From positions 1 through 48,169 of the IMG/VR virus record IMGVR_UViG_3300030118_000538: 48,169 nucleotides of DNA, one strand, 5' to 3'. Position 1 is the first letter of the stretch; every line of letters starts with the position of its first letter. Shown piece after piece: positions 8,538 through 44,149 of this stretch. This DNA comes from a virus. Both the position numbers and the translations under genes were made by a program. Under the pieces are notes generated by a model, which ran no database searches, had not been told where the DNA came from, and saw only the letters and a list, made by a program, of their open reading frames with translations.

Positions 8538-8981
8538 CTAAACTTCTATCCAGTCCTCCGCATTAAATAATAAACTTTCTGCCTTTCTTCGTCTAATCAA
8601 TCCTTCTAAAGTTTTGCCACCTGCTTTATTCCATCTACGCATTTCACTTGGCACTAACTCGTATTTGCCTTCATTAAGAACTTTTAACATGGTAGATGAA
8701 CGCAGATTGCCTACACCTAAATTAAAAGTCCATGCTACTAAAGCATCAAATTGACATTGGGTTAAAGGCACAGTCACATTATCTTCTACATAACCTTCAA
8801 ATAATTCTAAGTCCTTTTCTAGCATTTCATCTGCCATATCTTGTGTTATGGTCATGCCCTCTTTGACTCCTTCAGTATGTCCATAACCAATAGTAAGTAC
8901 ATTTGCACTACATAAATAACTTTCTAGTCTCAATCCTTCAAACTTTTTGATCAGACTAATTCCTTCTTGTGATGTTTTCAT
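8538..8981 (-). CDS. Endolysin, GH24 lysozyme family
   Basis: The ATG at 8981, after GGGGAGA, gives 147 residues; the upstream frame extension lies inside the nuclease gene. The N-terminal catalytic region has KKFEGLRLESYLCSANVLTIGYGHT spacing: E, then C in place of the usual D, then T, the E-C-T arrangement known in some phage lysozymes. FDALVAWTFNLGVGNLRSST and a late EGLIRRRKAE are also family landmarks. It cleaves peptidoglycan at lysis. No signal or SAR segment is present, so release needs a holin; a one-TM protein two genes upstream is a candidate. Confidence 0.93.
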   Translation of the reverse strand: MKTSQEGISLIKKFEGLRLESYLCSANVLTIGYGHTEGVKEGMTITQDMADEMLEKDLELFEGYVEDNVTVPLTQCQFDALVAWTFNLGVGNLRSSTMLKVLNEGKYELVPSEMRRWNKAGGKTLEGLIRRRKAESLLFNAEDWIEV

Positions 8982-8982
8982 A

Positions 8983-9381
8983 TTATTCTCCCCATGTTCC
9001 ATCTTCTCGTACTTTGGCGGTTTTTGTACCACCCCAGTATTCAACTGCGTGTCCTTCTTCAATAAGTAATTCACAAATGCTCTTACCATCTTCTGTAAAA
9101 GGGATGCCAAGTATTCGCCCATATTTGCCTTTACCTAATGATTGAATTTTGAATGAACCTACGCATAATTCAGTTAATCTTTCTTTAGCCTTCAAACCTA
9201 AGGCTTTTTCTTCAAGATTTCTAGTTCTGCTTTCAGGTGTGTCTATACCTGCTAAACGCACTCTTTGTTTGTGTAACATTACATCAAAACCAAGATCAAG
9301 AGTCACATCTATGGTGTCTCCATCTATTACCCTGTCTAAAATCGCATTATAGACAAATGGGGTGACGCTTGTTTTAGTCAT
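8983..9381 (-). CDS. Thermonuclease-like (SNase) nuclease
   Basis: From the ATG at 9381 the protein has 132 residues. SNase landmarks are all present: VIDGDTIDV, then RVRLAGIDTPE (first active-site Arg and the acidic site), then a helix with EEKALGLKAKE, then GKGKYGRILG (second Arg). No signal peptide is visible. It starts inside the end of the holin-like gene and ends two bases before the endolysin ATG, so it is an integral part of the lysis operon. It may degrade host DNA or lower lysate viscosity; the role is inference. Confidence 0.88.
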   Translation of the reverse strand: MTKTSVTPFVYNAILDRVIDGDTIDVTLDLGFDVMLHKQRVRLAGIDTPESRTRNLEEKALGLKAKERLTELCVGSFKIQSLGKGKYGRILGIPFTEDGKSICELLIEEGHAVEYWGGTKTAKVREDGTWGE

Positions 9382-9559
9382 CTTTATTTGGTGCAATCAT
9401 TTTTGCTTTACCTATGTTTAATGCGAGAATTTCTATTCCCTTATATAACTTACCCAAAAGCTCGTCATCCTTTGGTGTAGGCGTAATAGCTGCTATAAAA
9501 CTAGCAACACAAACTACAGAAGTAACAACAGTAACAATGCTCATTATTAAATCAAACAT
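9374..9559 (-). CDS. Small one-TM protein, candidate holin
   Basis: A 61-residue protein with one long hydrophobic helix (residues 4-26) followed by TPTPKDDELLGKLYKGIEIL and a basic, amphipathic tail. It has a strong AAGGAG ribosome site. Its position between the spanin pair and the endolysin, plus the single-TM design, suits a small holin or pinholin. Assignment rests on context and topology, since holins share no sequence motif. Confidence 0.6.
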   Translation of the reverse strand: MFDLIMSIVTVVTSVVCVASFIAAITPTPKDDELLGKLYKGIEILALNIGKAKMIAPNKDD

Positions 9560-9598: not shown

Positions 9599-9979
9599 CT
9601 ATTTTTTACTAGAATCTTCTGTATCTTCTTTTTTATCGTATTCTCTATAATAAGCTACGATAGAAAGTATATTATTGGTATATCTGGTGATTTCTGCCAT
9701 GTTATTAGACAGATTTTGATACTGTTGAGTAGTTAAAGCATAGTAAGGCTTTGCAGGAGCTTTACCTTCTTCTACTAATTTCAGATACTCTTCCATTAGT
9801 TCTGGGGTGAGTATTTCAAACTTAACATCTACAAGCTGCATTTCTAAAGGTAAAGGCGGATGATACATTGGCGGTATTTCAGCAATAGTCCTAACCTCTA
9901 CTGGCTTTGCTTTCGGCAATATAGAGCATCCGCTTATTAAGAAACCTAAAATTAAAAAGCTAGTTATTGTTCTTATCAT
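9599..9979 (-). CDS. Outer-membrane lipoprotein, o-spanin-like
   Basis: This 126-residue protein has a lipoprotein signal with lipobox LISGC (C18), followed by a proline-rich stretch (IAEIPPMYHPPLPLE) typical of Rz1-type o-spanins. The later region, YYALTTQQYQNLSNNMAEI, is shared by a lipoprotein family common in marine phages. It overlaps the end of the upstream i-spanin-like gene by 20 bases, matching a two-component spanin. It would link to the inner-membrane partner and fuse the membranes at lysis. Confidence 0.75.
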   Translation of the reverse strand: MIRTITSFLILGFLISGCSILPKAKPVEVRTIAEIPPMYHPPLPLEMQLVDVKFEILTPELMEEYLKLVEEGKAPAKPYYALTTQQYQNLSNNMAEITRYTNNILSIVAYYREYDKKEDTEDSSKK

Positions 9980-10376
9980 CTTCTTCTCCTAAGTCAAACT
10001 TATTTGGATTTGTTATATCAACTAAATTTTCCATAACCTTTTTAGACGCATTGTTGACCCTTTTTTCAATAAGTTTTGGCTTCATTAGGGCAAGATTATT
10101 TAGATCATGCCTTGCAAACTTATTTCTTAGCTCAGTAACTGCTCTGTTAGCTTCAGCTTTCTCTTTTTCTAAAATATCAAGCTGTTTACTTTGTTTTTCC
10201 TGATTTGCAAGATAATTCTTAATTGACTCGTTTTGTTCGGATATTTTTGACTCAAGTACGATCTGGTTGCCCTCTAAAACTGCCATTTGATTAAATAAAT
10301 ACTTAATATAGAAGCCAGAGCCACTAATTGTAGCTAACAAAAGACCTCCTAAAATAATGCTCAATTTAAATCCCAT
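9960..10376 (-). CDS. Inner-membrane coiled-coil protein, i-spanin-like (Rz-type)
   Basis: A 138-residue protein with an N-terminal TM helix (residues 5-27) and a long periplasmic coiled coil (30-90). The segment ELRNKFARHDLNNLALMKPKLIEKRVN is characteristic of Rz-like proteins in many tailed phages. It is directly followed by the overlapping lipoprotein gene, so the two form the spanin complex. Its ATG lies 11 bases inside the end of the cyclase gene, tying the cyclase transcript to the lysis module. Confidence 0.8.
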   Translation of the reverse strand: MGFKLSIILGGLLLATISGSGFYIKYLFNQMAVLEGNQIVLESKISEQNESIKNYLANQEKQSKQLDILEKEKAEANRAVTELRNKFARHDLNNLALMKPKLIEKRVNNASKKVMENLVDITNPNKFDLGEEDDKNNN

Positions 10377-12141
10377 AAACTCTCAATGGATATAATTTAC
10401 CTTTAACACTGATGTCGTTTACATATCTTAAATCAAATGTAGTTGTATTTGCAGTGTTTTCACCAATTAAAACTGTTTCTTTTTGATCTTTTGTAGCACT
10501 TTCAAGCCTAGCAGCAGTGTTAACAGCATCTCCTATAGCTGTGTAGTCAAATCTTGTCTCACTACCCATATTTCCAATGACTGCATCGCCTGTATTGATG
10601 CCTATGCCTATTTCAACAGGCTCTATACCCTCTTCTACCAGTTTTTTATTAAGTTCTTCCATATTTTTAACAATATCCTTTGCACACTGTATGGCTCTGT
10701 CTACATGATCATCTTGATCTAATGGAGCATTGAATATTGCCATCATTGCATCGCCAATATACTTATCTACCATGCCTTCATTAGCCTGAACAGCGTTTTG
10801 TTGTGCTGTTAGTGCAGCATTCATAATATATGTAACCTTTTCTGGCGGTAAACTCTCGCTAAGTGATGTAAAACCACGCACATCTGTAAATAAAAAGGTT
10901 GCCTCCTTCTTTTCACCGCCTAATTTTAGTAAATTTGGGTTGTTTTGCAGCTTTTTAACTTGTTTTGGGTCTAAATAATGCTCAAACTGCTTTTTGATCT
11001 GTAATCGTAGCTTGAATTGCTCTCTAAAGTTTAAATAAAAGGCAACAGCACCAATTATGAACTGACTTATGAGTGTCCAACTCACATCTATAAGTAAACC
11101 TGACCTAATTTGCTGATAGCCATAGACTGCTGTAGAGGCAAATATAAGCAAAAATGACAACAAACCTAAGGTAACCCCTAAAAACCTAGTAGAGACCCAG
11201 AGAATAGCTATAGATAGCAAAAAAATACCTAATTCAACAGCTAGACTGTAATCAGGTATATATGGAGAGTTTTGCACCAGTAAAGATTCTGCTAAAGCTG
11301 CTTGTATATAGTGTGGTTCTAACAAACCAACTGGTGTAGATAATTGTGGCATGACACCCTTTGCAGTCACCCCTACAAATACAAACTTATCCTCTACATC
11401 CATTTCCTTCAAAGATGTTCCACGTGGAACAATCCATGAAATCCACTTTCTCCCCATACTATCTACTTTGACAGGCGGTATACCTTTTACAGTTATTTCT
11501 TCTATACCATTGTCATTTGTTTTTATTATGTAAGTATCTGAGCCAGTAAGAGCTTTGAGAACCTGCGTACCAAATGATGCTATCCAACCATCAGGGGTTC
11601 TATAAAGTAAGGGTATTCTTCTTACTAAATTATCCGCATCTACAGGTGCAGATGCTATACCTTCATATGCAACTTTAGATAGTTCTTTTATGTTTTGTAC
11701 TGTGCCATTTGAAAGAAAGCCACCTATATCATCACCAAGAATTACTGTTCCTGTAGTCTTTGGATATTGTTTATTATTATTCTCAAAAAGAGCTATAACA
11801 GAAGGAGTATAAGCAAGAGCAGCTTTGAAGTAGCCATCACCTCCAAACCTATCTTCATGTGGGAAAGCTAACACCCATCCAACACCTAATGCACCATTTC
11901 TAAGCAAATCTAAATGTATTTTTGCAAGTTCTTCTCTAGGAAATGGATAACCACCTGCAGCATCAACATCTTCCTCTGTAATATTAAGTATTACAAAGTT
12001 TCCAGATTCTTTTGGTGTGACTACAAAATTATCAAATATTTTGAGTTTCAGTATCTCTGTCGGTGTACTTTGGAATATAAGCGGTAGTGATAATACAACT
12101 AAAAGTAATAAGCCTTGTGAATATTTAGTTAGATTCTTCAT
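10366..12141 (-). CDS. CHASE2-domain class III adenylate cyclase
   Basis: A 591-residue membrane protein. TM1 is at about 8-25, an extracytoplasmic CHASE2 sensor at about 30-295 (including a predicted LLEPHYIQAAL end), and three closely spaced TM helices lie at about 300-375. A linker and a cytoplasmic class III cyclase domain follow at about 410-591. Both metal-binding aspartates are present (FLFTD420 and YIGD464), as are adenine-specifying K460 and D532 (RFDYTAIGD) and transition-state N541 and R545 (NTAARLE). It should therefore make cAMP, not cGMP, in response to a periplasmic signal. Full-length cyclases are unusual cargo for phages. It sits in the late operon after the FecR-domain gene. 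Confidence 0.95.
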   Translation of the reverse strand: MKNLTKYSQGLLLLVVLSLPLIFQSTPTEILKLKIFDNFVVTPKESGNFVILNITEEDVDAAGGYPFPREELAKIHLDLLRNGALGVGWVLAFPHEDRFGGDGYFKAALAYTPSVIALFENNNKQYPKTTGTVILGDDIGGFLSNGTVQNIKELSKVAYEGIASAPVDADNLVRRIPLLYRTPDGWIASFGTQVLKALTGSDTYIIKTNDNGIEEITVKGIPPVKVDSMGRKWISWIVPRGTSLKEMDVEDKFVFVGVTAKGVMPQLSTPVGLLEPHYIQAALAESLLVQNSPYIPDYSLAVELGIFLLSIAILWVSTRFLGVTLGLLSFLLIFASTAVYGYQQIRSGLLIDVSWTLISQFIIGAVAFYLNFREQFKLRLQIKKQFEHYLDPKQVKKLQNNPNLLKLGGEKKEATFLFTDVRGFTSLSESLPPEKVTYIMNAALTAQQNAVQANEGMVDKYIGDAMMAIFNAPLDQDDHVDRAIQCAKDIVKNMEELNKKLVEEGIEPVEIGIGINTGDAVIGNMGSETRFDYTAIGDAVNTAARLESATKDQKETVLIGENTANTTTFDLRYVNDISVKGKLYPLRVYGI

Positions 12142-12328
12142 GTTTTACGATGTACTCCTTACAATCTACCAAATAGCTTTTTAGCCTATCTGCTTGTTTA
12201 TAGTGAAAATCTCTATAATCAGGCTCTATTATGGCTTTTTCGTAGTGAAAGTCTATCATTCTGAGGATTAAAGCTATAGCATCTTGATAAGGCATCCTTA
12301 CTGCCGAGCTGAAAGTCCTTTTAGGCAT
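12125..12328 (-). CDS. Hypothetical 67-residue protein between FecR and cyclase genes
   Basis: A small basic helical protein (MPKRTFSSAVRMPYQDAIA) with aromatic and charged residues and no signal peptide. It starts at the stop of the FecR-domain gene and overlaps the cyclase start by 17 bases, so it is made with both. A cytoplasmic partner for one of them is possible but unproven. No family is recognised. Confidence 0.65.
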   Translation of the reverse strand: MPKRTFSSAVRMPYQDAIALILRMIDFHYEKAIIEPDYRDFHYKQADRLKSYLVDCKEYIVKHEESN

Positions 12329-13485
12329 TACGACCCCTGTATTATTCTTATAGTGGTATCACTGCCTCCATTGATCTTTATAGTGTTTGACACACCATCT
12401 TGTATCAGAATTACAGTATATGAGCCAGTGCCATCCAAATCTATTCTCGCTGTTTCGCTTACGCTTCTACGCAGACTTATTAGTTGCCCTGTAACAAGTG
12501 TAGTAATTTGTGTGTCAGGGTCTTTACCGATAAGTGTGCCAGATATATTGATACCAGTAGCTTCTGCAAGTTGATCTTCCTCTTCTTCTATTGCTAAAGC
12601 ATCTAAAACATTCAATAAATCTTCCAAAAAGTTCACATCCAAGTAATTTATATCTAGCTCTGTAAACTCTAGCTCTTTACTTTCTAAAAAATCTTCATTC
12701 AAATAATCTATATCCAAGTCATCAAAATCTAAATAACTTGCTTGTTTTGTCTGTGCATTATCTTCTACAAACCTCTCATCTTCTTTTGGTGGATTAACAA
12801 TCAACATATTATCTATAAGTTCTAAAGTGAGGTCTAAAATTACAGGCTTAGAGGGTGCAGATTCAAACATTTTAGCTGTTGTGGCTTCGTAAGGCTTATT
12901 CAGAGTTACACTACCTGCCATTGTAGTCACAATGATTTCACCAGAGGATATGCCTGTATCATCTGGCAAAAGTATAATTAACGACTCTCCTAATTCATTC
13001 ACTGTGCAAGTAAAGTCAGTTCCACGAATAGCAATGTTAGCTGTTGGAGTTTTCAGAGATATATTCTTTTTATCTATTTTATTGAGACTACCAGTGATAA
13101 ATCTAGCTGTACCACTGGCAAACTTTAACGCCATCTTAGTTTTACTAGGATTTGGGTCGTAGATGTATTCGTCTATTATCAAAGACGAGTGTTCTGTAAG
13201 TCTTACTTTAGAGTCATCTAAAAAACTGATTGCAATACGACCATTGGATGTACGAACATCGTCAAAACTTTGTATGCCGAAGTCTACCTTAGGAGCATAC
13301 TCATCATCACGAATTATTTTGGCATAGCCATTTAGTTCGCTTACTGCTCCAATGTCAACAACTTGTGCTTGTGCCTTGATCGTTTTGGTTGACGCAAACA
13401 GTACCATTAGAACCATTAGATATGATGCGAAGCCAGTCGTTGTCCAAAGTTGACTGTTGCGATATGTTGAATGTTCTGCTACCAC
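12328..13485 (-). CDS. Secreted FecR-domain protein with acidic repeat linker
   Basis: From a GTG at 13485 the protein has 385 residues; an ATG at 13416 (residue 24) is the alternative and leaves a shorter signal sequence. A hydrophobic segment at 17-37 ends near KAQAQ and looks like a Sec signal. The FecR domain spans about 70-165 (VRTSNGRIAISFLDDSKV, SLKTPTANIAIRGTDF). An acidic linker at about 234-308 repeats DLDIDYLNEDFLE-type units. A beta-rich C-terminal region, with curlin-like IKINGGSDTTIRI, follows. It has no anti-sigma N-terminal domain, so it is not a classic FecR regulator. It overlaps the curlin-like gene by up to 131 bases. Confidence 0.85.
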   Translation of the reverse strand: MVAEHSTYRNSQLWTTTGFASYLMVLMVLFASTKTIKAQAQVVDIGAVSELNGYAKIIRDDEYAPKVDFGIQSFDDVRTSNGRIAISFLDDSKVRLTEHSSLIIDEYIYDPNPSKTKMALKFASGTARFITGSLNKIDKKNISLKTPTANIAIRGTDFTCTVNELGESLIILLPDDTGISSGEIIVTTMAGSVTLNKPYEATTAKMFESAPSKPVILDLTLELIDNMLIVNPPKEDERFVEDNAQTKQASYLDFDDLDIDYLNEDFLESKELEFTELDINYLDVNFLEDLLNVLDALAIEEEEDQLAEATGINISGTLIGKDPDTQITTLVTGQLISLRRSVSETARIDLDGTGSYTVILIQDGVSNTIKINGGSDTTIRIIQGS

Positions 13486-14065
13486 CAGTTTGCTCTAATT
13501 TAAAATATTGACCTGCATAACCATCTCCATCAAAAGTAACTGTATTGTCGTTACCATCTAAGCTCATATAGTTGGTAGCTCCATCAGCGTCAATAGATGC
13601 AGTAATTGTATTACCACCTCCATTGATTATCCAATCTAAATCAAGTTGTGATGCTAATGCAGAAGTTGCTTGATTCAAGGTAAAAGTATTTGTGTTACCT
13701 GTGACATCAACATAAATATTAGAATTATCTGCTCCAAAGGTATTTGTAGGGTCAGTTTGTATGTTGAATACATTACTGTCACCATCAAATTCAAAAAAGC
13801 CAGTATAAGTATCACTGGTAATATCTCCTAAAAATTTATTTAGATTACCTATTTGGTTTATATCAAGTGTTGCAGATGTAATGTCTAAGTCTAAGGCAGT
13901 CATACTTCCTGCTGTAGCATCGCTACCACCGATGATATTACCAGAACCAAGCTGCTCAACATCTATGTTTACAGTTGCTCCTGACTGATCTATATAAACC
14001 TCATTATCGGCAGTATATGCTACTCCCATATAAAATAAGGCTACTAATAAACTAACTATCTTCAT
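13355..14065 (-). CDS. Secreted curlin-repeat protein (CsgA/CsgB-like amyloid candidate)
   Basis: A 236-residue protein with a Sec signal peptide (MKIVSLLVALFYMGVAYTA). The mature part is rich in N, D, T, G and Q. It carries curlin-type strand-turn units such as VEQLGSGNIIGG, LDINQIGNLNKFLG, FTLNQATSALA and FNISQQS, spaced roughly 20-45 residues apart, which is looser than E. coli CsgA. It ends with VCVNQNDQGTSTSC, holding its only two cysteines. It directly follows the CsgG gene, the pore that exports curlins, so it is the likely substrate. Identification as a curlin rests on the Q-x-G-x-x-N pattern and context. A phage surface or decoy protein is an alternative. Confidence 0.75.
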   Translation of the reverse strand: MKIVSLLVALFYMGVAYTADNEVYIDQSGATVNIDVEQLGSGNIIGGSDATAGSMTALDLDITSATLDINQIGNLNKFLGDITSDTYTGFFEFDGDSNVFNIQTDPTNTFGADNSNIYVDVTGNTNTFTLNQATSALASQLDLDWIINGGGNTITASIDADGATNYMSLDGNDNTVTFDGDGYAGQYFKLEQTGGSRTFNISQQSTLDNDWLRIISNGSNGTVCVNQNDQGTSTSC

Positions 14066-14852
14066 TTTCTACAATACTCCAAAAACCTGATTTATGACCT
14101 TCATGTATAGTTTGTAGAACTGCAGTTTCTATAGCTGCTTGGAGTGCTAGATTGACTGATTCATTTTCGGTCATACCATTCTCTACTTCTACTAGCTCTG
14201 TTTGATCTGCCACAAATCTAAATACATCTTGGCTAACACCCACACTAAGTATGGTTTTGGTAACCAAGACTTCTAATAAAATGCGACCAGTAGATACTGA
14301 TACTGTGCGTAAAGATACAATTACTGTATCTTGTCGGTACTCTTTGGAACTTCCTATTCCTAAGTACCTAGCACCATAACCGCCTGATTTTACATTACTT
14401 TCATATCCTACAACACTACCCTCCATTAGTAAACCTGCAAATAATAATGGTTTAAGTTGTTGTTTTTCTTCAAAATTTTCTCTTGTAGATCGTATAATTT
14501 GTCTTTCTTTGGTTAAATTATCTAATCCTGTGCGTTCTACAACATCAAAAAAACCTGAATGCTGTAAAGCTCTTATTAGATAAATATGCGGTGCTTGTGT
14601 TACTGCTGTACTAAAAGTAGCAAAAGAACTGTTACCTCTTCTTTGTCCTGTGTCGTCTTTAAAAGCTGTAGGATAAACAGCTACAGTAGGTTTTCTCTCA
14701 GGTTTGCCAACTTCTGCAAGTCCTTTAATAACAAGAGAATTTATCTGTGCTTCTTGCTTTGTGGGTTCATTCTGCCACTTGCCATTTATTGCACAACTAG
14801 AAAGTAAAATTACCAATAGGCAAAGTGATAACAGTCGTACCACCAGTTTCAT
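14052..14852 (-). CDS. csgG: CsgG-like curli secretion channel lipoprotein
   Basis: Beginning at the ATG at 14852 the protein has 266 residues, near the 277 of E. coli CsgG, with lipobox LLSSC (C20). Conserved CsgG segments include DDTGQ, TFSTAVTQAPHIYLIRAL, MEGSVVGYESNVKSGG, GARYLGIG, VSLRTVSVSTGRIL and TKTILS. In E. coli CsgG forms a nonameric outer-membrane channel for curlin export. By my alignment the constriction residues Y51 and N55 are replaced by Ser and Thr while F56 is kept, so the pore may be wider or less selective. The start lies 56 bases inside csgF and has no ribosome site, suggesting coupled translation. In-frame codons upstream to a TTG at 14948 lack a signal peptide. Confidence 0.93.
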   Translation of the reverse strand: MKLVVRLLSLCLLVILLSSCAINGKWQNEPTKQEAQINSLVIKGLAEVGKPERKPTVAVYPTAFKDDTGQRRGNSSFATFSTAVTQAPHIYLIRALQHSGFFDVVERTGLDNLTKERQIIRSTRENFEEKQQLKPLLFAGLLMEGSVVGYESNVKSGGYGARYLGIGSSKEYRQDTVIVSLRTVSVSTGRILLEVLVTKTILSVGVSQDVFRFVADQTELVEVENGMTENESVNLALQAAIETAVLQTIHEGHKSGFWSIVENEDS

Positions 14853-15306
14853 CGGTAATTGTAAGTGTAATAAACTCGCCATCTGACACATAGGTAATAG
14901 TATTTCCTTCCAAAGTAATAGTACCTTCTGTACTAGGAGTTTCTCCAAACAAGTTTTCTACTAATTGCCTAGATAACTGTGCGTATATACGACTTTCTAA
15001 ATTTCTTATAAACCTTGCTAATGTTGTGTTTTCTTTGTCTCTTTCTATCTCTTCTTGTAATGCCTTGATTTCATCTTTCAAGGCTTTCTTTCTGTTAAAT
15101 TCTTGATTTTCTATTGTCAAATAATGCGATGATGTGCCTATACCTGAAAAACTAGGACTTTTGAATTTGAATACCATTTCATCTGCAAAAACACTCTGAA
15201 TAGAACCAACTAAGACTGTTAAAACAATAAAAGACAAACCAATTATGGCAAACCACATCTTGAATTTTTCATCTTTTGCTTGTTGTGCTTTTGTCTTTTT
15301 TTTCAT
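14797..15306 (-). CDS. csgF: CsgF-like curli assembly factor
   Basis: A 169-residue protein with a basic N-terminus, hydrophobic segment at 18-36 and a probable cleavage after VFA (residue 41). The mature start DEMVFKFKSPSFSG closely matches the N-terminus of E. coli CsgF, the part that plugs into the CsgG channel. The C-terminal portion (LSRQLVENLFG, then TITLEGNTITYVSDGEFITLTITDE) matches CsgF's helix and beta region. It anchors curlin nucleation at the pore in bacteria. Gene order csgF-csgG-curlin differs from E. coli csgDEFG and csgBAC. No csgE, csgC or csgD is seen in the window. Confidence 0.85.
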   Translation of the reverse strand: MKKKTKAQQAKDEKFKMWFAIIGLSFIVLTVLVGSIQSVFADEMVFKFKSPSFSGIGTSSHYLTIENQEFNRKKALKDEIKALQEEIERDKENTTLARFIRNLESRIYAQLSRQLVENLFGETPSTEGTITLEGNTITYVSDGEFITLTITDETGGTTVITLPIGNFTF

Positions 15307-15550
15307 TATCTTTAAGTTTATTTTCTTCCTTAAGCTCTAAAACTGTATTTACCTTCTGTTGTAATCGTATCATATCTTGGTCTAAAAGACGCAACTGGTC
15401 AGTCAATCTTATAATGGTTTTTTTCATGTCCTCTACAGCAGGACTTATCGTATTTGTTATTGTTTGCCATACATACCAGACGAAATATCCTAGTCCTACA
15501 ACCATAACTACAGGAAAACCAAAGTCAGCTATTAACTGTCCAATGTCCAT
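15269..15550 (-). CDS. Small one-TM coiled-coil protein (paralogue of the gene at 15843)
   Basis: A 93-residue protein: TM helix at about 11-32 (FPVVMVVGLGYFVWYVW), then a coiled coil through residue 75 with LLDQDMIRLQQKVNTVLEL, then a highly charged lysine-rich tail. Its pattern matches the next upstream gene along its length, indicating duplication. Similar proteins near tail genes in marine phages are sometimes called holin-like. It overlaps csgF by 38 bases. Function is unproven. Confidence 0.7.
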   Translation of the reverse strand: MDIGQLIADFGFPVVMVVGLGYFVWYVWQTITNTISPAVEDMKKTIIRLTDQLRLLDQDMIRLQQKVNTVLELKEENKLKDNEKKDKSTTSKR

Positions 15551-15843
15551 TAATCTCTTCTTGCGTCTATTTTTCCATCTTCTACAAAATTCTCTGCTCT
15601 TGCAATTCTTTGCAAATCTGGACTAAGATCAAGTGCTGCAGATACACTTGTATCTATTCTAATCATGTCATTGTTCATTATAGAAGCTCTTGTAATAAGC
15701 ATTTGTGTTATGCCTTGTATAGTTTTTATCTCTGCAACAAGACCATCCATTAGCTGCTTCATAACTAAAAATATAAAGTAAGCCATAACCAAAGCACCTG
15801 CTATTGGTACACCTACCTCAGCTATCAGATTGAACGCTTCCAT
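15550..15843 (-). CDS. Small one-TM coiled-coil protein
   Basis: A 97-residue protein with a TM helix at about 8-29 and a helical region with MNNDMIRIDTSVSAALDL. It aligns with its downstream neighbour (LIAxxGxP near the start, DMIR and LxL later), so the two are tandem paralogues and could form a hetero-oligomer. The stop and the neighbour's ATG share one base. Holin-like or anchoring roles are possible; no motif decides. Confidence 0.7.
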   Translation of the reverse strand: MEAFNLIAEVGVPIAGALVMAYFIFLVMKQLMDGLVAEIKTIQGITQMLITRASIMNNDMIRIDTSVSAALDLSPDLQRIARAENFVEDGKIDARRD

Positions 15844-15982
15844 ATAATCTTTTGTTTTCCTCTTTTAAGTGTTTTAAATAATGTTTTAAGTTTCTTTCTA
15901 TTCTGTAGTTTGCATAGAGTTTGAATCCTATAAGACCGAACAATACAAGCAAGTTTAAAAAGATAACAAAAAACTCTATCAA
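15818..15982 (-). CDS. Small TTG-initiated membrane protein (54 residues)
   Basis: This gene begins with TTG at 15982, overlapping the previous stop in TTGA, and has AAGGAG seven bases upstream. The product starts (M)IEFFVIFLNLLVLFGLIG, a TM helix, then a basic helical tail with HYLKHLKEENKRLYG. It ends at TGA (15818-15820), overlapping the next gene by 26 bases. It fills an otherwise empty 135-base stretch in a cluster of small membrane proteins. The alternative frame across the same interval gives a highly basic, cysteine-containing product that looks spurious. Confidence 0.65.
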   Translation of the reverse strand: MIEFFVIFLNLLVLFGLIGFKLYANYRIERNLKHYLKHLKEENKRLYGSVQSDS

Positions 15983-16308
15983 TTATCTTCTCCTTTGAAT
16001 TTTTTACTTTGACCTGAAGTACCTGCATATATACCAAATACTGCTGCCATAGCACCTACAACAATAGAAACTAAAGCAGATTGCTCTAAATTAGGCTCAG
16101 GTAGTTCCATAAACCATATGACAACTTTATAAAGCAGAACTATATATACACTGACAAATATTCTTGGAAATATCCTCCAAGCATCTACAGTTTTAGCCAA
16201 ATGCACCCATTTCATGTAAGGATTATCTCCATCATTTACAGGCGTGACATCAATATCTAGCTCTAATTTTTTCTTTATTGGCTCATCTTGTTTTGGCTCG
16301 TCAATCAT
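15979..16308 (-). CDS. Two-TM membrane protein, holin candidate
   Basis: A 109-residue protein with an acidic N-terminus, a segment YMKWVHLAKTVDAWRIFPR typical of a marine-phage membrane family, and TM helices at about 52-70 and 77-95. The tail is charged (GQSKKFKGEDN). Two TM helices with a charged tail suit a class II holin, but it lies 7 kb from the endolysin. It competes with the one-TM protein at 9374 for that role. Confidence 0.7.
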   Translation of the reverse strand: MIDEPKQDEPIKKKLELDIDVTPVNDGDNPYMKWVHLAKTVDAWRIFPRIFVSVYIVLLYKVVIWFMELPEPNLEQSALVSIVVGAMAAVFGIYAGTSGQSKKFKGEDN

Positions 16309-27393: not shown

Positions 27394-29052
27394 TTACCTC
27401 ATTAACATAATTTCTATATGAGATGCAGCACCACCTCTTATCACATGAGTACCACTTCCAGAAAATGTTTGCACTTTCATTGTCTCACTTGCTACTGCCT
27501 TAAACATAAAATTTATTGGAACATCATAACCATAATCATTGGTGCTGTTACTACTATTAGCGTGTTGTTCAAATATACCAAGTTCAACATCATTGTGACT
27601 AGAAAACACTACTCTTGCCAAAGCATAGTTTGTGGCACTTACTTGCTGTATGCTTATTACACCAGTACATAAATAAACACCTGCTACAGGCATTGTGAAA
27701 GTAGAGGTTGCAGTCCTCATATCTGAACCATTATTTTCTAAAGTAGTATCAACACTCCAATCTGTCCAAGTTGCAGCAGAAACAGTTTGATTTGAGCTTC
27801 TATAAGCAGCTACATATGGTTGATTGGAGTTTGTTTCTCTACCAAGTTGGTCAATGGTAAGTCTTGCTGCTAAGTTATTTGCTGAAGATGTATAGAATAC
27901 TAGCTTTCCATCATCTTTATTGGTTGTGTCATCTCCTGTTGCAGAGGCTATCATTGCAACAGTAGTACCATTCCACTTGCTTTGCATTTCGCCTATAGAG
28001 CTTCCTGCACCACTTCTGTTTGCATCAAATATTATTGCATTTGAAGTATTACCAGTACTCTTGATAGTCAAACCTTCATCGCCTGAGTCAGTATGTATGT
28101 GAAGATTATTTGTAGGACTTGTAGTTCCGATTCCAACATCGCCACTTGTTCCATGAATCATCATTTTTGAATCAGCAAGGACTACACTATTACTATCATT
28201 TGCAATATCAACTAGAAAATGTAAATGTCCTCTAGCTGCACCATCGCCAATTTGTTCTTGAGCTATCGCTGTTTTTCTATAAGTGGCATTAGCGTTTTCG
28301 GTATATCCTAAAGAAATACCAGTATAATGAGTATCTGTAGTTGCAATAGCTCCAAAGTGAGAATATGTACCAGTAGATGTAGCTACCTGTAAAGTACTTT
28401 GAGGACTATTAGTTCCAATCCCAAGCCTATTATTACCTCCATCAATTCTCATAATCTCTGTGTTGAAAGATTTAAATATGTGATGACCTGCTGTAGAGTT
28501 TGTTGAAGTAGATTTGTATGTAATATCTTTACTAGATGTAAGTTCTAAGTTTTCAGAACCACTTGTGGTATTAAAAGATACAGTTCCTTCGTCATTGTCT
28601 CCACTATGCCCAAAGTTAATAGCTAGAATTGAAGAACTACCACCTAAAATACTTAATGTTGTATTGTCATCATCTTCTACTGTTAAAACTGTGCCTGTTG
28701 CAGCAGTTGCTCCACTTGATGCTGTTGAGAATGTTCCTGTAGTTCCTGTTATTGTTCCTGCATTTGTGATGTTTTGGCTTCCCATATTCAAAGCACCAGA
28801 CATAGTGCCGCCTGAAAGCGGTAAGACTGTGCTAAAGAAAGAAGCGTTGTCGTTCATAGCTGCAGCTAACTCATTGAGAGTATTCAAACTACTAGGTGCA
28901 GAATCTACAAGATTAGCTACAGCAGTGGTCACAAAAGCTGTGGTTGCAACTCTTGTTGTGTTATTTCCTGCAGATTGCGTTGTAGTTGTAGGATTACCGC
29001 CTAAAGCTACATCATCTATGATCTGTTCACTGCTTACTTTAGTATTAGCCAT
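27394..29052 (-). CDS. Tail fibre protein with C1q/TNF-like head
   Basis: A 552-residue fibre. The first 80 residues are nearly identical to those of the next upstream fibre (IIDDVALGGNPTTTTQSAG), so it is a paralogue sharing an attachment domain. The middle is repetitive beta-helix sequence. The last 130 residues resemble a C1q/TNF-like jelly roll (FTMPVAGVYLCTGVISI, then INFMFKAVASETMKV). That fold commonly forms trimeric receptor-binding tips. Its start overlaps the upstream gene by eight bases. Confidence 0.82.
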   Translation of the reverse strand: MANTKVSSEQIIDDVALGGNPTTTTQSAGNNTTRVATTAFVTTAVANLVDSAPSSLNTLNELAAAMNDNASFFSTVLPLSGGTMSGALNMGSQNITNAGTITGTTGTFSTASSGATAATGTVLTVEDDDNTTLSILGGSSSILAINFGHSGDNDEGTVSFNTTSGSENLELTSSKDITYKSTSTNSTAGHHIFKSFNTEIMRIDGGNNRLGIGTNSPQSTLQVATSTGTYSHFGAIATTDTHYTGISLGYTENANATYRKTAIAQEQIGDGAARGHLHFLVDIANDSNSVVLADSKMMIHGTSGDVGIGTTSPTNNLHIHTDSGDEGLTIKSTGNTSNAIIFDANRSGAGSSIGEMQSKWNGTTVAMIASATGDDTTNKDDGKLVFYTSSANNLAARLTIDQLGRETNSNQPYVAAYRSSNQTVSAATWTDWSVDTTLENNGSDMRTATSTFTMPVAGVYLCTGVISIQQVSATNYALARVVFSSHNDVELGIFEQHANSSNSTNDYGYDVPINFMFKAVASETMKVQTFSGSGTHVIRGGAASHIEIMLMR

Positions 29053-30739
29053 TTTCTAAAGCCTCCAATCTTTTCATAAGGTCTTTTACAACTTCTACTA
29101 AACAAGAAACTGTAGCAGAAGCATCTCGCCCTTCTATTCCTACATCAGCGTATTTAGTGTCATTTACATAATCATGTAATACACTGTGGTCTAACTCGTA
29201 TTCTTTTTTATATTTTTCTAAATACTCTTCAAGACTCAATGCCTCCCTTTCAGGTTGTGGCATTTCATCTTTTGCTTGTATTTTATTGTATTGTGCTGTA
29301 GCTAATCTGGTTATTTCTTCTTCACTTCTGCGTTGATGTGAATTGATTACATCTTTTGCAAGTTGTAGTGATGTTGGATAAGGTGTTCTGTCTGTGACAC
29401 TTGCTGCAGATATATTATCTTGCACATAAATGTCTCCTCTATCAGGATTAGCTAAAGCGTAAGATGACGAAGCTAAAAGTCCTCCTAGTTTCAAACTTGC
29501 TGCTGAGAAATTATCTTCTGCTTCATAAAGTTGAAAAAAGTAATTAGTACCAACAGAACCAGAAGCTAAACAAGCAACAAATGAAGGTCCATGTAATCCA
29601 TTAGCAGTATTGTTTGTGCCAAAGGTGTACTGAGGTTGGCTATTTGACTGCTTCACTCTTAATATGTTTGTGCCACCAGTAGCAAGACCTAATGTATTTG
29701 CAGCAGGAAAGTACATACCTGTATCAGTATCATCTACATCTGAAATACTAGGATTTGAAACACTTGAAACAGCACTTCTCAAGAAAAAGCCATTGCTGCC
29801 AGTGCTAGATGCCTTAAATGTATTTGTGCCTGTTTCTACTTTACCGACATTACCAAACTTTACATTACCATCTACTTCAAGTTTTTTGCTTGGCGAAGTT
29901 GTTCCCACCCCAAGATTACCACCATTGAAATAAGAATCTCCATTACTATCAAATCTTATATCTTCGTTTTGTGCAGAATCATGAATACTTAATCTGCCAT
30001 GTCCTGATATTTCTGTTACTGAAAATAGATTATTTTGTGTTGAATCGTCACTACCGCTTTTTAAAACTCTTAATGCTGTAGATGTTGCACCTGTGGAGAG
30101 AATATCAACAGGCACTATAGGATTTATACCTGCACCAAATCTTGGTGCTTTTACAAAACTATTAAATGTGGCTTTTCCTGCATCTGACATATCAAGTGTA
30201 AGGGCAGTTATGACAGAGCCACCATCATTACCTCTTAATACTATATCTCCATCTTGAATACCTTGATTTATTCTTAAGTCATTTCCTGACTTGACCAGTT
30301 CTGCAAATGTAGTGCCTCCATCTTTTAACTGTATTTCCCCACTATCTGCGTCTAAAACAATGTTTCCTGCCACATCAAGAGTAAGGTTGCCTGAGTCAGC
30401 TAATGTTTGGTTTGCACCTGAAGCAGCTAATTTAGTAGCTATAGAGTTTGTCACAGTCGTACTGAAGTTAGCGTCATCTCCTAGTGCTGCTGCTAGTTCA
30501 TTTAATGTATCTAAAGCAGAAGGGGAGCTATCAACAAGGTTTGAGATCGCTGTAGATACAAAGGCAGTGGTTGCTATCCTTGTGGTGTTGTTTCCTGCAC
30601 TTTGAGTCGTTGTTGTTGGATTGCCACCTAGTGCAACATCATCAGCTATGAGAGCAGAGGTAATTTGGTCATCAGCAATAGCTGCAGTCAGAATTGCATC
30701 ATCTGCTATAACTCTTGATGTAATTTTAGTGTTTGCCAT
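29045..30739 (-). CDS. Tail fibre protein with helical C-terminus
   Basis: A 564-residue fibre with the same N-terminal attachment domain as its neighbour (DDVALGGNPTTTTQSAGNNT). A beta-rich shaft includes LGVGTTSPSKKLEVDGNVKFG, a common fibre repeat. The last 110 residues are helical and charged, ending LVEVVKDLMKRLEALENG, probably a trimerising coiled coil or chaperone-like end. It lacks the full S74 signature found in the 2278-residue fibre. Confidence 0.8.
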   Translation of the reverse strand: MANTKITSRVIADDAILTAAIADDQITSALIADDVALGGNPTTTTQSAGNNTTRIATTAFVSTAISNLVDSSPSALDTLNELAAALGDDANFSTTVTNSIATKLAASGANQTLADSGNLTLDVAGNIVLDADSGEIQLKDGGTTFAELVKSGNDLRINQGIQDGDIVLRGNDGGSVITALTLDMSDAGKATFNSFVKAPRFGAGINPIVPVDILSTGATSTALRVLKSGSDDSTQNNLFSVTEISGHGRLSIHDSAQNEDIRFDSNGDSYFNGGNLGVGTTSPSKKLEVDGNVKFGNVGKVETGTNTFKASSTGSNGFFLRSAVSSVSNPSISDVDDTDTGMYFPAANTLGLATGGTNILRVKQSNSQPQYTFGTNNTANGLHGPSFVACLASGSVGTNYFFQLYEAEDNFSAASLKLGGLLASSSYALANPDRGDIYVQDNISAASVTDRTPYPTSLQLAKDVINSHQRRSEEEITRLATAQYNKIQAKDEMPQPEREALSLEEYLEKYKKEYELDHSVLHDYVNDTKYADVGIEGRDASATVSCLVEVVKDLMKRLEALENG

Positions 30740-41183: not shown

Positions 41184-42011
41184 TCATAGCACAATATCTC
41201 TTTCGTCAGCATAAACTATCACACACCGACAATTTACGACATTTTTTGCACCGCCCTTTGGGTCTCCTGCATGGTTCATAGGACTGCCACCTATATCAAA
41301 GTCCTCATCCATGTTTCTAATCTGTCCATTTGCTTCTACATGAGCTGATCTCGTTCTTTCATCTGCTGTAGATACCCACCTTTTCATCATGTTTATACCT
41401 AAATCTTTTCTTAAGGTGTCATGATAGTTATGATTTGCAAAAGATGCTGCATTGTGCGTTTCTGTTCTTGCAATCAAAGCAGCTCTGCTTCTGCTTATAG
41501 GTAATACTCTTTCAGTTATTCTTCTAGCCAACTGATTCAAGCTCAAGCCTTCTTCTCTACCTTCCTCTATAATTTGTGCTACTTTCCTAGCTACTGATAC
41601 AGATATACCAGATAAGTACAAAAGTCTATCTCTATTGTAAAGATTTATTAAATCCTCTATGTCTATGTTTCTGCCAAAGATAATCGCCTCTTCTGCTTTT
41701 TGCTGTGGCTCATAGATAGATTCATTAGTTTGATATATTGATCTGAATACCTGTCTATAGTGCATATACATCACAGGTTCTAAGTCCTCTCGCAAGTCTC
41801 TTGCTGCTATGTCAGCATCGTATTGATTGAACTCTCTGACAAGATACGCTTTGGTATTCACAAACCTACTAAAGATTGAGAGAAGTTGCTTATATACTTT
41901 CTTTTCTAAGTTATTTCTAAGCCTACTCTGTCTACGAATCTCTTTGCGTAGATTTATCCTTCCTCGTCTGAAATCTCTAAGCTGTTTTTTATCAACGAGT
42001 TTTAAGGTCAT
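41184..42011 (-). CDS. Head morphogenesis protein (SPP1 gp7 / Mu F-like)
   Basis: The 275-residue protein has a basic, helical N-terminal two-thirds and the conserved domain ending RWVSTADERTRSAHVEANG, GGSPMNHAGDP and NVVNCRCVI. That domain is the minor head protein signature of SPP1 gp7 and Mu gpF. A few copies sit inside the prohead near the portal. It follows the portal gene with a four-base overlap. Confidence 0.9.
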   Translation of the reverse strand: MTLKLVDKKQLRDFRRGRINLRKEIRRQSRLRNNLEKKVYKQLLSIFSRFVNTKAYLVREFNQYDADIAARDLREDLEPVMYMHYRQVFRSIYQTNESIYEPQQKAEEAIIFGRNIDIEDLINLYNRDRLLYLSGISVSVARKVAQIIEEGREEGLSLNQLARRITERVLPISRSRAALIARTETHNAASFANHNYHDTLRKDLGINMMKRWVSTADERTRSAHVEANGQIRNMDEDFDIGGSPMNHAGDPKGGAKNVVNCRCVIVYADERDIVL

Positions 42012-44149
42012 TTTTTACTAGAAAGTGGATGACCCTTAGGGAAAAGATCGGTGTCATGACGACCCCCCTGAAATCTACCAGACCTCAAGGCACTAAGGAA
42101 ACTGTTCACACGAGCAAATGCCCACTGGTCTGGACCACTAACTCTAGGTCTAACAGAGCTAGGATTTGTATTGTATGCACCTACGCCTCGCTTGAACACT
42201 GCCTCTAACATACGCACTGTTGCCCTTTTTGTTGGTTTGTCGCCATACTTTTCATTATGATCATCAACTTTATTCTTTAAGGCTTCTTTTACTTTTGCTG
42301 ATACTTGTTTTGTATCTTCCATGACTGATACAAACTCATCATCTATTTCAAAGTCAAAATCTTCTAAATCTTTTCTGCCTTCTAATTTCTTTGTAAGTTC
42401 AAGGATTACATCTTTCATGCCTTGCTCACCAAGTTTTGGATTTATGACTCCCCACTTCATTAACGCCACAACTCCTGCAACATTTGACAGGTTTGGTTCT
42501 TTGCTACCACCTACAAACTGGTTGCCATCATTGACGCTATGTCTAGCTGCCCATGCTTCTCTTTCTTTAATCCATTTAAGCACTGCAGGAGACTCTGAGC
42601 CTTCTCTAGCTCTACCCCAAAGCATGAACGCTTCATTACCTCTGATATTACCACCTGCTGCCCAGATTTGTTTACCAACACCTACTTCTTTTACATTTTT
42701 TGCAAAATCATAGTCAAACTGTGGATATTCTGAGTTTCTTAGTGATATTTTCTTATCATCACCTGCATTTGGAAAGTCAGTTTCTTTTGTTTCGTCTTGC
42801 TTCTGCTCATCAAGCATATACTCTGCTTCTGTAAGCTCCTCGTAGTCTTTTACATCTTCATCTGCGTCTGGCACATCAGGAGAAGGCGGTGACTCGCTAC
42901 CTAAGGGGAACAGAGCAGCGTTGATATAAATATCGTCACCACCATCTATTGGATTGAGTCCGATAATCTCTCTTGCTTCATTCCTAGTCATTATTCCTGC
43001 ATTTACTGCACTGACTATGTTTTCGTAAGTCTTTCTTTTTCTTTCTGCTAAGGCAGGAATACTTTCTGTATCAAATGCCAAGTTTAATCTTTCATCAAAC
43101 TGCGGTACTAGCCATTCATTAAAGTCAGACTCTATTAGTTTGATATGTGGGATGATTGTTTCTTCATATAAAGCTAGTCTAGCCTCTGCAACATTTGCGT
43201 AAGTTTGTGCATCAGGCACTCCTACAAGCTGACTTGGTACACCAAAACACAATGCAATATCTGTAGCACTCATATGCTTCAAATTAATAAAGTCCATATC
43301 TTTTGGTGATAGACCCATTTCTTTCCAATCAAAATCACCCTCTAATAACATAGGTCTACCTGCGTTCCCTGAGCCTGTAAATCTGTTGTTTAAATCTGTT
43401 AGTAGCTGTTGTCTTTGTGTTTCATTAAGGTTTACAGCAAAACCTGCATCATCCTTAGGCTTGAATATGACTGCACCGCTAGGTCTAGCACCATTATTTA
43501 AAAGATTTATGTTGTGCTTACTAGCTAAGTTATGTTGGTCTACTTCTACTGCTGCTGCTGTTAATGGAGAACAACCATAAAAATCATCCATCGGATTCCA
43601 TAGCTTAATATGTTTTAGTTGAGAGAACCCTGTGTCTTGATCTACTAAATAGCTTTCCTTGACTCTGCCATTGATCATGTAGTCATATCTATCAGGAAAC
43701 TGTGATGTACCGCCTTTGATTACTATTCTATCTGGTCTGAGTAAGTGTAACTCTCTTGGTAAGCCTCCTTCTGCACCTACTTTTAACACATAGGCATTAC
43801 CACTTAGAAGCAAAAAGCCATAAAGAGCATTAAAAAACTCTGAGTAGCTTTGCATTGGATTGGGTCTGTCCATCAAAGATATTAGTGGATGTGTTTCTAA
43901 TACCTGATCACCTGCCTTTAGATCGTAGCTGACTGAACTTGCACCTTTTGATATTTCATTAACACAACGATAAACGATTGCGTTTTTCTTATAGCCTTCG
44001 TTTGCTAAGTCTTGATATTTATATTCTGTGCTACTAGAACCGACACCAAAGTACCCAAACATACTCCCATCTCTTTTGAACTCATCTACAGGCGTGTTGA
44101 GTAGTCTTTGAAAAAATGTTCTATTGTCTGCCATTAACTTATTCTCCAA
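42008..44149 (-). CDS. Portal protein with extra C-terminal domain
   Basis: At 713 residues it is much longer than typical HK97 portals (about 400-450). The first 410 residues are a standard HK97-type portal (VYRCVNEISKGASS, DRPNPMQSY, LLSGNAYVLKVG, MSATDIALCFGVP). The last 250 residues are separate in character. They include KQIWAAGGNIRGNEAFMLWGRAR, VNDGNQFVGGSKEPNLSNV and a basic end RFQGGRHDTDLFPKGHPLSS, found also in other phage head proteins. This could be a fused structural or enzymatic module. An ATG at 44134 is an alternative start. Confidence 0.92.
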   Translation of the reverse strand: MENKLMADNRTFFQRLLNTPVDEFKRDGSMFGYFGVGSSSTEYKYQDLANEGYKKNAIVYRCVNEISKGASSVSYDLKAGDQVLETHPLISLMDRPNPMQSYSEFFNALYGFLLLSGNAYVLKVGAEGGLPRELHLLRPDRIVIKGGTSQFPDRYDYMINGRVKESYLVDQDTGFSQLKHIKLWNPMDDFYGCSPLTAAAVEVDQHNLASKHNINLLNNGARPSGAVIFKPKDDAGFAVNLNETQRQQLLTDLNNRFTGSGNAGRPMLLEGDFDWKEMGLSPKDMDFINLKHMSATDIALCFGVPSQLVGVPDAQTYANVAEARLALYEETIIPHIKLIESDFNEWLVPQFDERLNLAFDTESIPALAERKRKTYENIVSAVNAGIMTRNEAREIIGLNPIDGGDDIYINAALFPLGSESPPSPDVPDADEDVKDYEELTEAEYMLDEQKQDETKETDFPNAGDDKKISLRNSEYPQFDYDFAKNVKEVGVGKQIWAAGGNIRGNEAFMLWGRAREGSESPAVLKWIKEREAWAARHSVNDGNQFVGGSKEPNLSNVAGVVALMKWGVINPKLGEQGMKDVILELTKKLEGRKDLEDFDFEIDDEFVSVMEDTKQVSAKVKEALKNKVDDHNEKYGDKPTKRATVRMLEAVFKRGVGAYNTNPSSVRPRVSGPDQWAFARVNSFLSALRSGRFQGGRHDTDLFPKGHPLSSKK

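Follow-up and report, generated by a model that had tools for sequence, protein, structure and literature searches.

What is a set of bacterial curli genes doing in a phage genome, run together with a FecR-domain protein and a membrane-bound adenylate cyclase? The window considered here is the whole of the virus record IMGVR_UViG_3300030118_000538 (48,169 bases), in which csgF, csgG, a curlin-like gene (Cur1), a FecR-domain gene, an open reading frame (ORF) of 67 amino acids, and a CHASE2 adenylate cyclase gene all lie on the minus strand and overlap at every junction. A preliminary description had placed these six overlapping leftward genes at 10366 to 15306 and proposed a linked, possibly undescribed system for sensing or envelope remodeling; gene calls and Pfam matches confirm the genes and their positions. 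The reading that we prefer, with a probability of about one-half, is that the block is the known pelagiphage curli module in a siphovirus-like phage: a late export operon that would remodel the cell surface, with a captured FecR-CHASE2 pair as an optional sensing arm.

The window has the CsgG pore and the CsgF protein of the bacterial curli, or type VIII, secretion system, both over cut-off. The csgG gene (14052 to 14948; PF03783, 2.1e-52) encodes the outer-membrane secretion pore, a lipoprotein, and csgF (14797 to 15306; PF10614, 5.7e-20) encodes its partner. The likelier start of csgG is the ATG at 14852, from which the product carries a lipobox and the overlap with csgF shrinks from 152 nucleotides by the listed ends to 56. 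After an overlap of 14 nucleotides comes Cur1 (13355 to 14065), a curlin-like, secreted protein, predicted to be all-beta, with a conserved GxxN ladder and two C-terminal Cys residues. The FecR-domain secreted protein (12328 to 13485; PF04773, 3.7e-11) has an acidic linker and a beta-rich C terminus, and its gene overlaps that of Cur1 by 131 nucleotides by the listed ends, or by 62 from the likelier ATG at 13416. The cyclase gene (10366 to 12141; PF05226, 8.1e-25; PF00211, 3.5e-21) closes the block. Between these two lies the 67-amino-acid ORF (12125 to 12328), overlapping FecR by 1 nucleotide and the cyclase by 17; it had no match and is probably outside the system. In the hidden Markov model panel it has three matches, all of them in the window or in contigs whose cyclase is identical; lacking conservation, it was rejected as a component. 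The block is also longer than six genes, since two small membrane genes at its head (15269 to 15843) belong to it: Xa (15550 to 15843, minus strand; phrog_18771, 7.6e-23), a 97-residue protein with a single transmembrane (TM) segment and a conserved C-terminal DARRD, and its relative Xb (15269 to 15550, minus strand; phrog_18771, 2.7e-25), a 93-residue single-TM protein that precedes csgF. The six-gene extent first proposed is thus real as far as it goes, with two head genes missing from it and one ORF too many counted in.

Is this arrangement a chance assembly? Gene order was surveyed in three viral-contig scans, whose loci are the best 80 of 365, 473, and 589 relatives recruited by similarity to cassette proteins. 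Five rows that duplicated other loci or the window were dropped (L001, L084, L129, L165, and L183), and loci L351 to L446 stand outside the counts. The remaining 228 distinct viral contigs, from which HTVC008M, Melnitz, and the window itself are left out, lean toward window-like relatives, and the counts, made with profiles built for this analysis and restricted to contigs with room, are not independent because the set includes identical or almost identical contigs (e.g., L015/L016 and L163/L164). FecR stands just upstream of the cyclase in all 157 contigs, directly in 156 and with the 67-amino-acid ORF between them in one; Cur1, CsgG, and CsgF lie upstream of FecR in 150 of 150, and Xb lies upstream of CsgF in 115 of 115. 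Ratios of nonsynonymous to synonymous substitution (dN/dS) of 0.04 to 0.27 in informative pairs indicate purifying selection on the cassette genes. The recurrence of this order in 228 viral contigs, together with these ratios, argues that the block is not a product of chance. The proposed linkage is therefore sustained: a gene-neighborhood survey that could have found the genes scattered, without consistent co-occurrence, clearly saw no scatter and a near-invariant order.

The cyclase is the part that can go. Downstream of CsgG, FecR is found in 69/69 viral contigs and the cyclase in 64/69; in the other five, FecR runs directly into Rz/Rz1 or endolysin genes. The cyclase can be lost and FecR is not, suggesting that export and FecR form the core of the module. 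A separate Rz1 scan found FecR or the cyclase upstream in all 14 new loci with room.

Where the cyclase is present, it appears to be kept in working order. A periplasmic CHASE2 domain is followed by TM segments and a cytoplasmic class III cyclase domain; its profile has matches among adenylate cyclases of solved structure. Six catalytic-type residues, D420, K460, D464, T534, N541, and R545, are all retained in 188 of 189 complete phage copies, the window's included, the sole exception being an Asn-to-Ser change at a catalytic-type site in Melnitz. We take these six to be the class III set: two metal-binding Asp residues, the base-selecting Lys and Thr/Asp, and the transition-state Asn and Arg.

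The FecR-domain protein seems to be of another kind than its name might imply. FecIR-type anti-sigma regulators have a cytoplasmic N terminus, a central TM segment, and a sigma-factor partner. In the window protein, the FecR domain (residues 75 to 164) sits behind an export-type start, no TM-like segment reaches the cut-off used, and Sigma70_r2 has no match in the window, so we rejected an iron-dependent anti-sigma role. A full-length homologue occurs in Caulobacteraceae, with 40% identity.

With what, then, is such a protein associated in bacteria? CHASE2 is present in 186 of 385 genomes of the alphaproteobacterial class, and a FecR gene is nearby in 10 of 20 CHASE2 loci, hand-picked from the top-scoring listing and some of them cut by contig ends; in five csgF regions taken as a control, FecR had no match (0/5). 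By Pfam scans, the neighbors of FecR are CHASE2-cyclases in L302 and L327 and CHASE2-SpoIIE phosphatases in L251, L258, L269, L326, L328, and L343; in L256 and L270 they are cyclases without CHASE2. Three of these loci (L251, L258, and L269) are titled Pelagibacteraceae, and in them FecR lies near a CHASE2 domain fused to a SpoIIE-type phosphatase, with no cyclase. Published accounts, as far as the parts available go, pair FecR with a CHASE2-cyclase in Campylobacterota clusters (PMC9239204) and with a CHASE2 histidine kinase in the Burkholderia biofilm operon BiofilmReg (PMC5192318). The expectation that bacterial FecR and CHASE2 genes are often neighbors thus holds. Because the outputs vary among cyclase, SpoIIE, and histidine kinase, the constant partner of FecR looks to be CHASE2 rather than the cyclase, and the window phage has this layout, with the gene for an exported FecR-domain protein next to one for a CHASE2 receptor.

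The whole core also exists in bacteria. When 84,980 species genomes were scanned for FecR, two Caulobacteraceae metagenome-assembled genomes (L236 and L237) proved to carry csgF-csgG-curlin-curlin-FecR-cyclase, in the phage order; they lack Xa/Xb, and none of the phage profiles applied had a match there. Their flanks are cellular, in L236 by ORF reading and in both by Pfam for some genes; the gene after the cyclase is of PycTM type in L236 (13572 to 14165) and a TetR gene in L237. Such operons are rare: a strong full-length FecR match occurs in 1 of 299 genomes of the Caulobacteraceae order, and 6 of the 385 class genomes have a CsgF match that passes the cut-off, one of them the L236 genome and the other five with csgF-csgG regions lacking FecR and cyclase. 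The phage and Caulobacteraceae cyclases group together in one clade (support 100/100) that excludes 12 other bacterial CHASE2 cyclases. A phage-to-bacterium direction was considered: the Caulobacteraceae copies fall between the T4-like and the other phage copies (87/73 or 93/81), but monophyly of the phage cyclases is not rejected (approximately unbiased test, P = 0.164), and the Caulobacteraceae may have been either donor or recipient. The suggestion that a FecR-cyclase pair moved as a unit and then joined curli genes is not supported, the five-gene core being a single operon already in these two genomes. The Pycsar antiphage system was rejected as an identity for the block, the window having no PycTM and the PycTM gene beside the L236 copy not being common to L237. 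Two further loci binned as bacterial, L238 (Planctomycetaceae), which holds Xa and Xb, and L257 (Pelagibacter), of 3 kb, seem to be pieces of phage that carry the cassette and were binned wrongly.

Is the module new to phages? The available portions of PMC9599517 (mSystems 2022) describe a type VIII secretion cluster in HTVC023P-type and T4-like pelagiphages, with csgF, csgG, csgA/B, FecR, and adenylate cyclase, headed by one or two "histidine kinases" and often joined by a second curlin; csgF and csgG were also reported in PMC7029224, where "sibling capture" was proposed, and a lysis role was proposed for Melnitz in PMC9004378. The suggestion of an undescribed system therefore falls, as these papers describe the module or its pore genes. 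The carrier differs. PHROG matches to a tape-measure protein, a distal tail protein, a portal, a head protease, and a major head protein, together with a tail-protein homologue recovered by tblastn, suggest that the window phage is siphovirus-like; no close relative was found among annotated phages, the best terminase match being 52% identical. Of 30 long carrier contigs, 6 have a match to the window portal and a separate 7 to the HTVC023P terminase, with no overlap; these two sets and HTVC008M/Melnitz make three carrier lineages, and by these marker matches the window phage belongs with neither the HTVC023P-type nor the T4-like carriers already published. Residues 448 to 712 of the portal ORF (42008 to 44149) match a "hypothetical protein" of Salinibacter phages at 48%, and in two relatives the portal match is split into two pieces, with a TAG reported inside. 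Elsewhere in the window, two adjacent tail-fiber genes (27394 to 30739) have several PHROGs in common and look like paralogues.

How might such a block work? CsgG and CsgF would form an outer-membrane export pore, and Cur1, probably with the FecR-domain protein, would pass out of the cell late in infection and build fibers or a coat on its surface. The exported FecR-domain protein would then be a component of the envelope or fiber and the partner of the periplasmic CHASE2 domain; once this pair is engaged, the cytoplasmic cyclase would make cyclic AMP (cAMP), reporting the status of export or assembly. The most likely benefit would be a changed surface of the infected cell, for example, one that holds neighbor cells or blocks other phages, with the cAMP arm as an optional means of tuning the change.

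Several results weigh against this scheme. The CsgE gate is missing, PF10627 having no match in the window, and Cur1 of the window has no Pfam curlin match of its own and would be a degenerate curlin: at E <= 1 (best, 1.3e-5), Curlin_rpt is found in 17 of 33 members of its family but not in the window's protein. The AlphaFold2 model of Cur1 is all-beta (pLDDT 85.4, pTM 0.80), which speaks for the scheme, but its fold search gave no significant match (best E, 0.13). A culture of Melnitz showed no clumping in the available text of PMC9004378. Scans for promoters and terminators found sites no more frequent than in shuffled sequences, so the case for late expression is one of position and strand. 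No domain binding cyclic nucleotides was found in the window, and hence the cAMP receptor would be the host's. For a bond between FecR and the fiber, the clues are mixed. FecR proteins and curlins finish alike, in beta-x-beta-x-Q (84/84 and 71/74 unique C termini, respectively), an ending absent from nine other families drawn from the block and its neighbors, and Q.G..N is found in 83 of 98 unique FecR ends, with the two T4-like phages and L236 lacking it. Given that lack, no Curlin_rpt match in 27 FecR C termini, and a weak hhalign comparison (probability, 24%), we rejected a true curlin repeat; the FecR model is also too poor for a structure search (pLDDT 55.6), leaving the link suggestive. 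The C-terminal likeness hints that FecR could dock on the fiber. A bolder version holds that FecR is a curlin-tailed reporter whose Q-terminated C terminus joins the fiber at the CsgG-CsgF pore as its FecR domain signals to CHASE2, so that a captured matrix-sensing pair would serve as an assembly checkpoint, with cAMP tying completion of the coat to the lysis genes that follow; we regard it as a long shot.

What do the head genes contribute? Among 50,697 phage records, Xa matches only the six cassette carriers and Xb four of the six, so Xa was rejected as a general phage lysis gene. Both have a single TM-like segment in nearly every copy. Xb weakly matches a "holin" family, phrog_4898 (4.2e-5), as do 13 of 31 members of the Xa/Xb family (best, 2.4e-5), and 12 of 31 match Pfam YvrJ (best, 0.009). 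HisKA and HATPase are absent from the Pfam matches listed, which cover 25 of 34 families, and a histidine kinase identity was rejected; the "HK" genes of PMC9599517, judged by place and number, may be Xa and Xb. Just upstream of the block lies a holin candidate (15979 to 16308, minus strand) with two TM-like segments and a match to DUF3792 below cut-off (1e-3). An X gene stands behind it in 73 of 79 loci with room. A search for empty sites among the other six gave no clean one: of the four X-less loci with gene lists, none shows a contiguous lysis module. Two relatives that lack the cassette have, behind the holin candidate, a gene for a seemingly exported protein carrying long Thr-Asn repeats (L397:3010-4104 and L400:10306-11400) and one for a second large protein; the two may make up a different surface module.

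Could the block instead time lysis, with the CsgG pore, the cAMP made by the CHASE2-cyclase, or both setting the moment? The pore alone has been proposed for this (PMC9004378, in the part available), and the neighborhood invites the idea: in the window the block runs, on the same strand, into an Rz-like inner-membrane spanin (9960 to 10376; phrog_739, 5.9e-13), which the cyclase gene overlaps by 11 nucleotides, an Rz1-like outer-membrane spanin lipoprotein (9599 to 9979; phrog_812, 1.9e-13), an SNase-type nuclease (8983 to 9396; PF00565, 1.7e-12), and a phage lysozyme, the endolysin (8538 to 9122; PF00959, 1.5e-47), and the small membrane genes weakly like holins stand at its head. The nearest recognized gene after the cyclase in 140 contigs with room is Rz in 88, endolysin in 35, and nuclease in 4; the other 13, with no recognized lysis gene downstream, count on the opposite side. 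Ten of 13 lineage-typed contigs have an Rz, endolysin, or nuclease match downstream on the cassette strand, the exceptions being L206, with no lysis match, and L127, with only an opposite-strand nuclease match; the stored stretch of L162 ends within the cyclase. The T4-like HTVC008M and Melnitz-3 have no lysis genes behind the block, an Rz-like match in Melnitz lying about 26 kb away, and lysis adjacency is thus a habit of most sampled relatives and not a property of the whole module. Late operons commonly hold accessory genes, and the window phage keeps spanins, a lysozyme, and a holin candidate of its own. The cyclase is dispensable besides, and lysis genes do not follow the block in two T4-like phages; lysis timed by cAMP could occur but is the less likely reading, and we consider lysis timing as a whole unlikely.

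A change of surface without any feedback from the fiber, as in a block to superinfection or sibling capture, would leave the cyclase to act on host physiology only. Both benefits have been proposed (PMC7029224 and PMC9599517, in the parts available), and that the cyclase is the one part lost fits such a division of labor; the nearly unbroken adjacency of FecR and cyclase in the viral contigs and the bacterial FecR-CHASE2 pairing with several outputs argue instead for a sensing link, and we give this account a similarly small chance. The absence of a CsgE gate would suit a third proposal, found in the same two partly available sources, that an ungated CsgG pore takes up nutrients or iron compounds. 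Uptake alone would not need CsgF, curlin, or FecR, however, and Cur1 is retained beside FecR throughout and under purifying selection, making this the least probable of the accounts considered. We therefore favor surface remodeling by an export operon to which a FecR-CHASE2 sensing arm is optional.

These observations place a published phage module in a third lineage, with a near-invariant order in a large, similarity-recruited sample. They add that the module opens with conserved small membrane genes and usually runs directly into spanin or endolysin genes, that the cyclase can be lost with FecR kept, that the five core genes make up an operon in two Caulobacteraceae genomes, and that bacterial FecR genes stand beside CHASE2 with cyclase or SpoIIE output. 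The optional cyclase, the lysis adjacency of most sampled relatives and its absence in the two T4-like phages, the Caulobacteraceae operon, and the FecR-CHASE2 pairing whatever the output are facts able to separate the standing hypotheses. As CHASE2 ligands were called unknown in 2016 (PMC5192318, in the text available), a role of FecR as a ligand of CHASE2 would bear on many bacteria and not on phages alone.

How does the window block compare with known systems? It has in common with bacterial curli (csgBAC/csgDEFG) CsgF, CsgG, and a curlin-type secreted protein, differing in the lack of CsgE (PF10627) and the addition of FecR and the cyclase. The Burkholderia BiofilmReg and Campylobacterota systems (PMC5192318 and PMC9239204) likewise set an exported or outer-membrane FecR-domain protein beside CHASE2, but they have a histidine kinase output or phosphodiesterase and TPR partners, and the parts of these papers available mention no curli genes. 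The Caulobacteraceae operon has the core genes in the window's order, with two curlins, cellular flanks, and no Xa/Xb. HTVC008M and Melnitz (PMC7029224 and PMC9004378, each available in part) have Xa, Xb, csgF, csgG, Cur1, FecR, and cyclase in the window's order but are T4-like, with no lysis genes behind the block and with an extra second curlin gene, which in HTVC008M (L002:6639-7964) encodes a PA14 domain ahead of curlin repeats, an adhesin-like arrangement. Closest in plan is the pelagiphage type VIII secretion module of PMC9599517, in which, by the portion available, the order csgF-csgG-curlin-FecR-adenylate cyclase is the same and one or two "HK" genes at the head match Xa/Xb in place and number. 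The host of that module's carriers is Pelagibacter; for the window phage no evidence of a host was found. The window block differs from it in belonging to another lineage, in having no second curlin gene, and in adjoining lysis genes, where that portion makes no mention of holin, spanin, or endolysin.

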